In this document: piece by piece, positions 5,113 to 13,517 of the stretch
Layout: each line of letters starts with the position of its first letter
How positions within the stretch are numbered: position 1 is the first letter of the stretch
Notes under the pieces: generated by a model
Told to the model about the DNA's origin: nothing
Databases searched by the model: none
Seen by the model: only the letters and a program-made list of their open reading frames with translations
Program-made: the position numbers and the translations under genes
Origin: Planctomycetota bacterium
GTDB taxonomy: Bacteria; Planctomycetota; Phycisphaerae; WQYP01
Reading direction: 5' to 3'
Assembly: GCA_021828935.1 (NCBI GenBank)
Contig: JAJZCU010000012.1
Coordinates: forward strand, 1-13,517
DNA: 13,517 nt

Positions 5113-5199
5113 GGAGAGATGTCCGAGTGGCTTAAGGAGCACGATTGGAAGTCGTGTGTGGGGGAAACTCCACCGTGGGTTCGAATCCCACTCTCTCCG
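5113..5199 (+). tRNA. tRNA-Ser (anticodon GGA)
   Basis: This is a complete class II tRNA cloverleaf. The acceptor stem GGAGAGA (5113-5119) pairs with TCTCTCC (5192-5198), followed by discriminator G5199. The anticodon stem CACGA/TCGTG encloses the loop TTGGAAG with anticodon GGA at 5147-5149, which reads UCC and UCU. The long variable arm typical of serine tRNA is GTGGGG/CTCCAC-like between 5157 and 5174. The T arm is GTGGG/CCCAC around TTCGAAT. CCA is not encoded. The G discriminator and long arm are the identity marks for seryl-tRNA synthetase. Confidence 0.97.
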
Positions 5200-12699: not shown

Positions 12700-13080
12700 C
12701 GGGCCGCGCCGCGTGAAAAAGCTTTTAGCACCGTGGCTTCAGCCTGGCGCCCTGTTCCACGTTTATGTGAGTCCGTCGTTCCGCACAAATTCGGCCGTCC
12801 CGTGGGGACTTTTCTGTTTTTCGTTTTCCATCGCACCCCGGCATTGCGCTGCGGCTTCATGCCGAGCTATTCTCATGCGCCCATGCGGGCTAACAATAAA
12901 TGTGCGGCGCCCGCGGTCGTGCTGGAATGCCTGCCCAGTTGCGCCGCCGCCGCTGATGGCTGTATTTCGCGCTGCCTCGTCCGGGGCGGACGAGAATCGT
13001 CGCCGGGCGCGCCGCTTCCGTTCCACGCCCGGCCTGGTGCGCCAATGGCCGCCTAGGACAATCCGCCTTTGCCCCCCAAT
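12700..13080 (+). other. Long stretch without a supported gene
   Basis: No frame here has a good start, ribosome binding site or recognisable protein. The longest ones (plus-strand 12713-13084, minus-strand 12763-13164) are Arg/Ala/Pro/Cys-rich in the way of chance GC-rich frames. A perfect hairpin lies at 12976-12994: CTCGTCCG pairs with CGGACGAG around GGG, with no T run. AAAAGCTTTT is a 10-base palindrome near 12715, just after the 750-aa gene. I see no other structure. Confidence 0.5.
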
Positions 13081-13109
13081 TTGACCCATGCGAAGAACCC
13101 GTCCATAAT
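13081..13109 (+). promoter_or_regulatory. Candidate sigma-70-type promoter of the leader before the synthase gene
   Basis: TTGACC (13081-13086), exactly 17 bases, and CATAAT (13104-13109): five of six positions each, the best promoter match in the window. Transcription would start near 13116 and run through the leader ORF towards the terminator. Confidence 0.5.
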
Positions 13110-13133
13110 GTTGCTTGGTTTTTGAGGTGATTC

Positions 13134-13250
13134 GTGCGGACAACGCATGCCATACATTCTGCATTCCGGTTTGCCGCCATGCCGCGGCCCGTGGCGGACC
13201 GTGTGGTTGCGGTCCGCGCGGTGATTGGACCGTTGGCCGAAGTTGTTTAG
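13134..13250 (+). CDS. Possible leader peptide, valine-rich (38 codons)
   Basis: A short frame starts at GTG 13134, with GAGG (13124-13127) six bases upstream, and ends at TAG. The last 23 residues run MPRPVADRVVAVR then AVIGPLAEVV, with seven Val, one Ile and one Leu; an internal ATG at 13179 could also start it. It sits between a strong promoter-like sequence and an intrinsic terminator, upstream of a gene that begins like a branched-chain amino acid synthase. Together these suggest a translated attenuator leader in which ribosome stalling at Val/Ile/Leu codons would sense aminoacyl-tRNA supply. Val codons are common in GC-rich DNA, so richness alone is weak evidence. No homologue is known to me. 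Confidence 0.4.
   Translation: MRTTHAIHSAFRFAAMPRPVADRVVAVRAVIGPLAEVV
13194..13232 (+). promoter_or_regulatory. Mutually exclusive hairpins in the leader
   Basis: GCGGACCG (13194-13201) pairs perfectly with CGGTCCGC (13210-13217) around an 8-base loop. The CGGTCC core (13210-13215) can instead pair with a second GGACCG at 13227-13232. The two pairings cannot coexist, and both lie within the valine-rich leader frame, where a ribosome could choose between them. Confidence 0.45.
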
Positions 13251-13256
13251 GGCACG

Positions 13257-13297
13257 CCGGTTAAGCATTCCGGTTCACGCCTTCCGGTTTACGCATT
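13257..13297 (+). repeat. Three short tandem CCGGTT repeats
   Basis: Units starting at 13257, 13270 and 13284 read CCGGTTAAGCATT, CCGGTTCACGCCTT and CCGGTTTACGCATT. A related GCATTCCGGTTTGCC lies at 13161-13175. CCGG is self-complementary, so units could pair with one another or with the CCGG at 13321-13324 that begins the terminator stem. Confidence 0.6.
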
Positions 13298-13323
13298 ATT
13301 GATCCCAAGGATGTTGCACGCCG

Positions 13324-13359
13324 GCCCTGCAAAAGAGAATTAGCAGGGCATTTTTATTA
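13324..13359 (+). terminator. Rho-independent terminator upstream of the synthase-like gene
   Basis: GCCCTGC (13324-13330) and GCAGGGC (13343-13349) form a perfect 7-bp stem with a 12-base A-rich loop, followed by ATTTTTATT. It ends a transcript of about 240 bases from the leader promoter. It either serves as the attenuator of the next gene, 107 bases on, or closes a separate small RNA. Confidence 0.75.
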
Positions 13360-13465
13360 GATCATGCGATAGCCGCATGCGGCGGAGGCACGATTCTCTG
13401 ACGTGACGCATGGGACGGCGATGCGGTTGCAATCATTGCTTGGCACAAAATAAAGGTGGTCGCTG

Positions 13466-13517
13466 ATGACCAGAATAGACATATACGACACAACGCTGCG
13501 CGCCGGCGCGTCATGCC
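13466..13517 (+). CDS. Start of a citramalate/2-isopropylmalate synthase-like gene (truncated by the window edge)
   Basis: Only 17 residues are visible: MTRIDIYDTTLRAGASC. The opening IDIYDTTLR is the beta-1 signature of the HMGL-like pyruvate carboxyltransferase domain (DRE-TIM metallolyases), as in CimA and LeuA, which condense pyruvate or ketoisovalerate with acetyl-CoA for isoleucine and leucine synthesis. The usual continuation is RDGAQ or RDGEQ, where the Arg is catalytic and the Asp binds the divalent metal. Here the Asp is Ala, and Ser follows instead of Gln, so the enzyme would lack a key ligand if the read is right. AAGGTGG lies about six bases before ATG 13466. The region upstream holds a possible attenuator. 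Confidence 0.7.
   Translation, partial: MTRIDIYDTTLRAGASC

Follow-up and report, generated by a model that had tools for sequence, protein, structure and literature searches.

A candidate isoleucine-sensing attenuator with a start-codon helix upstream of cimA in Phycisphaerae

The end of contig JAJZCU010000012.1, from a planctomycete of the class Phycisphaerae, raises the question of what a short, valine-rich open reading frame followed by a terminator is doing in front of a biosynthetic gene. The window, that is, the whole stretch of 13,517 nucleotides that was analysed, holds all of these elements on its forward strand within its last few hundred bases. An earlier note, made from the letters alone, had proposed an attenuator responding to branched-chain amino acids. 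A comparison with relatives makes it quite probable that the region before cimA is a ribosome-mediated transcription attenuator which senses charged tRNA-Ile.

The leader region and its downstream gene

The individual elements described in the earlier note are borne out. The promoter-like sequence TTGACC-17-CATAAT at 13081–13109 is the sole promoter match of a scan of 12700–13517, where 0.4 were expected, and its score was reached by 0.3% of 300 shuffles of 13060–13133; in 14 of 19 leaders of the same family the best -35 match is likewise TTGACN. The ribosome binding site GAGGTG (13124–13129) is followed by the GTG start at 13134, and GAGGTG and then GTGCGGAC are seen in 15 leaders. The leader ORF of 38 codons (13134–13250; VRTTHAIHSAFRFAAMPRPVADRVVAVRAVIGPLAEVV) ends with TAG at 13248–13250, and its last 23 residues contain seven Val, one Ile and one Leu; seven or more Val in these 23 residues were reached by 0.25% of 2000 dinucleotide shuffles. 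The intrinsic terminator at 13324–13355 consists of GCCCTGC, a 12-base loop, GCAGGGC, an A and TTTTT (stem 13324–13330/13343–13349, -12.4 kcal/mol), and a simple terminator scan passed it over because the loop limit of the scan is 8. In the window the leader stop codon lies at a distance of 73 from the terminator, and this distance is 19–52 wherever else a convincing terminator follows the leader. In this interval a 14-base unit is present as three tandem copies (13257–13297), which lengthen the spacer to 73; the CCGG within each copy might base-pair with another CCGG that precedes the terminator, and by eye no such copies were seen in the relatives' leader regions that were compared.

The gene behind the terminator, which the note had likened to a citramalate or isopropylmalate synthase, can be refined to cimA, the gene of citramalate synthase. 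It has a ribosome binding site AAGGTGG at 13453–13459 and an ATG at 13466, and is cut after 17 codons by the contig end (13466–13517). Over the first 12 residues its product is identical to that of cimA at the related loci L021 and L022 except for one D for E, and the relatives' gene scores over the TIGR00977 cut-off in a profile search. A search for the other part of cimA in the window's genome, which is 53.7% complete, gave no TIGR00977 match at E 0.001. The last residues, DTTLRAGASC, deviate from the DTTLRDG of the relatives (DTTLRDGMQ in one), and the deviation is probably an assembly error. A 12-base palindrome, CGCGCCGGCGCG, is found at the contig end (13500–13517). Downstream of cimA, valS was recognized by eye in 12 of 18 loci (e.g., L007, L008, L011 and L014). 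The two valS candidates that were HMM-tested had valine--tRNA ligase as their best score, slightly below the cut-off on account of their truncated sequences.

A separate transcription start between 13360 and 13465, which the note had named as a finding that would speak against its reading, was looked for, and no promoter-like match there rose above shuffles: the best one between terminator and cimA agrees at 8 of 12 positions and was reached by 67% of shuffles. In genus g3 (L012, L014, L016 and L018) a TATAAT between terminator and cimA is a possible second promoter, and the window is without a TATAAT there.

Elsewhere in the window, two neighbouring similar ORFs (524–1429 and 1797–2708), each with a CIRCHG motif resembling a haem-binding one, look like a tandem duplication. 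Rfam 15, run on the window at the gathering cut-off, gave no match to the leader and a tRNA gene alone, at 5113–5199; the mechanical ORF listing crosses this tRNA on both strands.

Relatives of the leader and the codon they keep

Of the 258 genomes sampled from the window's class, 165 have a cimA that TIGR00977 detects at E 1e-120, and 25 of these 165 belong to f1, the family of the window itself. Upstream DNA was inspected at 130 cimA loci (30 + 100; no anchor was obtained for L085). In 18 of the 25 f1 genomes, cimA is preceded by a leader of the window's type; genome G004 carries a diverged copy; the leader is absent from about 480 bases upstream of cimA in the five genomes of genus g2; and in G008 the contig ends at cimA, so that the upstream region is missing. 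When the region was searched for directly at DNA level within f1, the matches were confined to short stretches, chiefly at the starts of the gene and of the leader. Outside f1, leaders reading MRT...VRAGI and MSA...RAGI precede cimA in families f9, f10, f24 and f11. Taken over these four families and f1, a leader is seen in 39 of 41 loci, which had been preselected for a candidate leader and were scanned with a rule that included the RA-X-I motif. The leader ORF and the stems are thus kept among relatives, as the earlier note had said they should be if the region is an attenuator.

Related leaders also stand before two other genes of the class, ilvB in one family and ileS, the gene of isoleucyl-tRNA synthetase, in another. 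Leaders of the same build were found before ilvB at L153 and L154 (one ilvB was HMM-tested as a fragment) and before ileS in G175, G210 and G122, together with a Met variant in G137; these ileS genes are over the HMM cut-off. Such ileS leaders account for 4 of 25 anchored regions in the genomes of f8–f12 and f24, with five loci not anchored. Within f1 the leader was not found before ileS in 24 anchored regions (two with fewer than 300 bases upstream; L206 not anchored) and before ilvB in 27 anchored regions (L234–L236 not anchored).

Which amino acid would such a leader sense? The codon ATT, three codons past the Arg of VRA, is present in 15 of 15 f1 leaders that were found without asking for Ile, the window with its Ile31 codon at 13224–13226 included, and in four further leaders of the same family whose search asked for Ile or Met. 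It is the only Ile codon at a conserved place in f1. The numbers of Val and Leu codons vary among the f1 leaders, and their places are not conserved outside a helix to be described below. The VRA motif has a fixed Val in f1; its codon, however, lies within one strand of that helix (A'), and this Val is replaced in G004, in f24 and in four of five f11 leaders with the Ile kept. Since the Ile codon stands at one fixed place, isoleucine is the likely signal, and the leaders before ileS, and also ilvB, point the same way. The interpretation of the earlier note therefore holds as far as an attenuator is concerned; its general branched-chain signal was dropped, because relatives keep one Ile codon and not the richness in Val. 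At L134 and L249 a Met occupies the control place and an Ile comes next.

Other families of the class have leaders of another make before cimA, with runs of Ile or Val and a terminator. Plain Ile-run leaders (e.g., MNVSRIIIIAIINETG and MNSRIASIIIISNHTKR) with a terminator were noted at L013, L028, L098, L101, L131, L142 and L148. Among loci from named genomes of Planctomycetota and other phyla, 15 of 79 anchored ones, drawn from at least 80 listed, have a leader before cimA by a loose rule run without a control, three of them of the RAGI type; cimA identity to f1 is at most 60% among the at least 80 loci listed. Ile/Val-rich leader ORFs with terminators and without VRAGI precede cimA at L267, L275, L283, L296, L302 and L342, and belong to Planctomycetia-type and Desulfobacteria/Deltaproteobacteria records.

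The start-codon helix and evidence for translation

A further feature of these leaders is a long-range helix that involves the start codon itself. Strand A (13134–13141, GTGCGGAC), which includes the start codon, pairs with strand A' (13212–13219, GTCCGCGC), one codon and one base upstream of the Ile codon, and the duplex has an energy of -18.9 kcal/mol. Over 40 distinct leaders, 7.4 of the 8 inner positions pair in register, as against 4.2 or fewer when the strands are slid by up to 3. Invariant positions in this helix prove little because most of the leaders were found by these very letters. The outer pairs are more telling: 34 of 40 leaders retain pair 9, where reshuffling gives an expectation of 23.6, and 27 of 40 retain pair 10, for which 15.2 are expected. 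In G004, whose leader was recognized from its position upstream of cimA rather than from the helix letters, strands picked by eye (start GTGCAGAGACAT, partner ATGTCTCTGCGC) form 12 pairs, one of them G-U, and at three places the bases on the two sides have both changed; the peptide at this site has become CAAI and the helix is retained. In f11 the best ungapped pairing is that of GTGTCGGC with GCCGGYAT, the codons of A-G-I themselves. The comparison shows a helix retained through compensatory changes, even where the peptide changed, as in G004.

The same leader bears on whether the peptide itself might help to arrest the ribosome through RA-X-I and so enhance a stall. The motif, which we take to resemble the RAG motifs of the SecM type, recurs in five families while the remaining peptide varies. 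It was, however, part of the search rule, its X may be G, V, A or K in f1, and G004 reads CAAI with A:A' rebuilt by compensatory changes, so that the RNA helix accounts for both VRT and VRA. An arrest peptide is thus very improbable, and the reading once drawn from RA-G-I was rejected on G004, which keeps the helix and the Ile and not the VRA motif.

To look for evidence that the leader is translated, the 258 class genomes were searched for strand A, strand A' and ATY as fixed elements with any spacing of 48 to 78. This pattern gave 39 matches in 34 genomes, and the backward pattern gave 2. Thirty-two of the 39 are of leader type: 26 before cimA, three before ilvB (one of them judged from the same letters on a second contig) and three before ileS. 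In all 32 the length is 3n-1, spread over seven values (74, 77, 80, 86, 89, 92 and 95), whereas 3 of the remaining 7 have such a length, as by chance, and the six of these that were opened are not leaders. A length of 3n-1 across seven values indicates that insertions and deletions kept the reading frame. Across 11 close leader pairs the changes are even over the codon positions, with non-synonymous exceeding synonymous ones. Judged from these alignments, the peptide appears to be under no visible selection, and the kept frame is what argues for translation.

These counts also speak to the idea that the locus makes a small RNA, or a stable small protein, that ends at the terminator and has nothing to do with control of cimA. 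A promoter and a terminator of its own would suit such a product, but every one of the 32 leader-type matches precedes cimA, ilvB or ileS, and the excess of non-synonymous changes in the 11 pairs gives no sign of selection on a peptide; we consider it extremely improbable.

Outside the class, the exact A/A'/Ile pattern occurs in 7 of 272 sampled genomes (8 of 294 overall, the window included), with 3 matches for the backward control, and no leader of this build was seen at the loci that were opened. At L354, one of the loci outside the class, a frame of 52 codons with a GTG start is open and contains VRAPI.

What could the helix do? Once the sensing region has been transcribed, A:A' can close the leader start codon, which would leave each transcript accessible only to a ribosome that had initiated early. 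A role as an RNA polymerase pause hairpin is less likely because the loop is large.

Antiterminator, terminator and mode of control

The earlier note could find no antiterminator by eye. One is nevertheless present: it spans the stop codon of the leader and is able to pair with the 5' arm of the terminator. In the window its 5' strand, B (TAGGGCACGCCGG, 13248–13260), begins with the stop codon, and its 3' strand, C (CCGGCCCTG, 13321–13329), overlaps the terminator 5' arm. The same arrangement can be seen by eye in relatives: in f10, GCCTTAGGGC, which spans the stop codon, has 10 bases of complementarity to GCCCTGAGGC in the terminator 5' arm; in f11, GGCCCCGGG is complementary to CCCGGGGCC; and at L023 of f1, GGTAGGGCG to CGCCCTGCC. 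Scored against dinucleotide shuffles, the B–C duplex energy has a mean z of -1.8 over 34 leaders, among which the scored stems of L009 and L010 are doubtful; L015, L027, L029, L053 and L056 were dropped for having no terminator-like stem within 110 bases. For the window alone z is -0.24, no better than shuffles.

Folding was also considered at the moment when the 3' arm of the terminator is not yet made. With a ribosome placed at the Ile codon, C–B pairing exceeds 0.5 in 31 of the 34 leaders; with a ribosome at the stop codon it does so in 6, a low count that is partly constructed because B is then covered; with no ribosome, in 23. The window's values for these three states are 0.77, 0.27 and 0.00. 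When B was shuffled, mean C–B pairing fell from 0.77 to 0.40, and the real value was above the shuffled mean in 31 of the 34 leaders, which are mutually related, so that a P value across them is not a fair one; the window's paired fraction of 0.77 (shuffled mean 0.40) was reached by 7% of shuffles. In full-length equilibrium folds the window's terminator has a probability of 0.81 in every ribosome state. Over the 34 leaders the median is 0.74 stalled vs 0.97 at the stop codon, and the stalled value drops below 0.5 in only 14, two of these doubtful. The potential for antiterminator pairing is there in the sequences, strong in the relatives and modest in the window alone. A protector helix would let an untranslated leader terminate; in the folding model, 23 of the 34 leaders would still antiterminate without a ribosome, unlike a textbook attenuator, while the window, at 0.00, fits the textbook.

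It might be asked, then, whether the leader acts through some other output, such as Rho-dependent termination or translational control of cimA, with the intrinsic terminator added in some lineages. In seven f1 genomes (G003, G013, G019, G022, G007, G015 and G004) no convincing terminator is seen, yet the leader and A:A' are kept, and in three of four leaders of genus g4 the ribosome binding site of cimA is, by eye, immediately preceded by a TCGGA/TCCGA hairpin. We regard this alternative as unlikely, given that 32 of 39 leaders have in our judgement a convincing terminator-like stem, most with a matching antiterminator strand, and that the window has such a terminator. By locus, the start-codon helix is present and a convincing terminator absent at L009, L010, L015, L027, L029, L053 and L052. 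In genus g8 there is a long hairpin about 27 bases before cimA.

Transcription attenuation is the reading we prefer, and its classical form is that of the leu, ilv and trp operons of enteric bacteria, in which a leader ORF with control codons chooses between antiterminator and terminator. Here, too, a leader ORF with a control codon and mutually exclusive antiterminator and terminator precede a biosynthetic gene. The present leaders differ from the enteric ones in having, in f1, one conserved Ile codon and not a run, in an antiterminator strand that spans the stop codon, in the helix between start codon and sensing region, and in the gene, cimA, behind which many relatives carry valS. The nearest parallels we found in the literature are predicted or proposed systems. 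A paper on Actinobacteria describes predicted leader attenuators of ilvB, leuS and trpS (PMC1262725); like the present leaders, these include ilvB genes preceded by terminators and by leader ORFs that contain branched-chain codons, as well as attenuators before aminoacyl-tRNA synthetase genes, but phylum and genes are different, and before ileS that paper places candidate T-boxes, where the present system has a leader ORF. The ilvB-II, ilvB-OMG and ilvB RNA motifs (PMC10272879) have uORFs rich in branched-chain codons, with attenuation proposed; the uORFs before ilvB are alike, but the present leader has no Rfam match. A search of 20 cimA loci against Rfam at E 0.1 gave one tRNA and three matches below the cut-off, to miRNA and WLE3 families. 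Short leader genes have been counted by distance, with planctomycetes included, in a further paper (PMC4833913). The open-access literature that was searched held no report on this leader system, subscription literature lying mostly outside the search, and nothing plainly like a sequestered leader start codon, the latter being weak evidence.

By its anatomy, then, the region appears to be a ribosome-mediated attenuator which differs from the known ones by its start-codon helix and its set of genes. A leader ORF with a ribosome binding site, a conserved control codon, an intrinsic terminator and, at the level of the group, an antiterminator are all found in the sequence; together with the ORF and stems kept in relatives and the leaders of ilvB and ileS, they favour the attenuator that the earlier note had proposed. 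Stalling, termination and read-through would proceed as follows. Transcription would begin near 13116; a ribosome occupying the start codon would melt A:A' and translate the 38 codons. When isoleucine is plentiful, the ribosome would reach the stop codon at 13248 and cover B, the terminator at 13324–13355 would form, and a transcript of about 240 nt would be released. When tRNA-Ile is uncharged, the ribosome would stall at Ile31 (13224), leaving B free to pair with C, so that the terminator could not form and cimA would be transcribed, with valS behind it in many relatives. A stalled ribosome would also cover A' and keep the leader start open, while a sensing region made without a ribosome would find the start closed; only an early ribosome would decide.

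One may go a step further, on ground where we lean somewhat against our own proposal, and picture A:A' as a lock on the start codon: without a ribosome already stalled there would be no further initiation, one ribosome would decide the fate of each transcript, and the lock, rather than the terminator, would be the conserved core of an isoleucine regulon (cimA-valS, ilvB and ileS), one that has more than a single mode of output within the class. In any case, the leader provides a well sampled candidate example of amino-acid attenuation at several genes, in a phylum for which the searched literature showed none. It names isoleucine as the likely signal, and it brings with it a conserved helix through which the first ribosome may be coupled to RNA polymerase.
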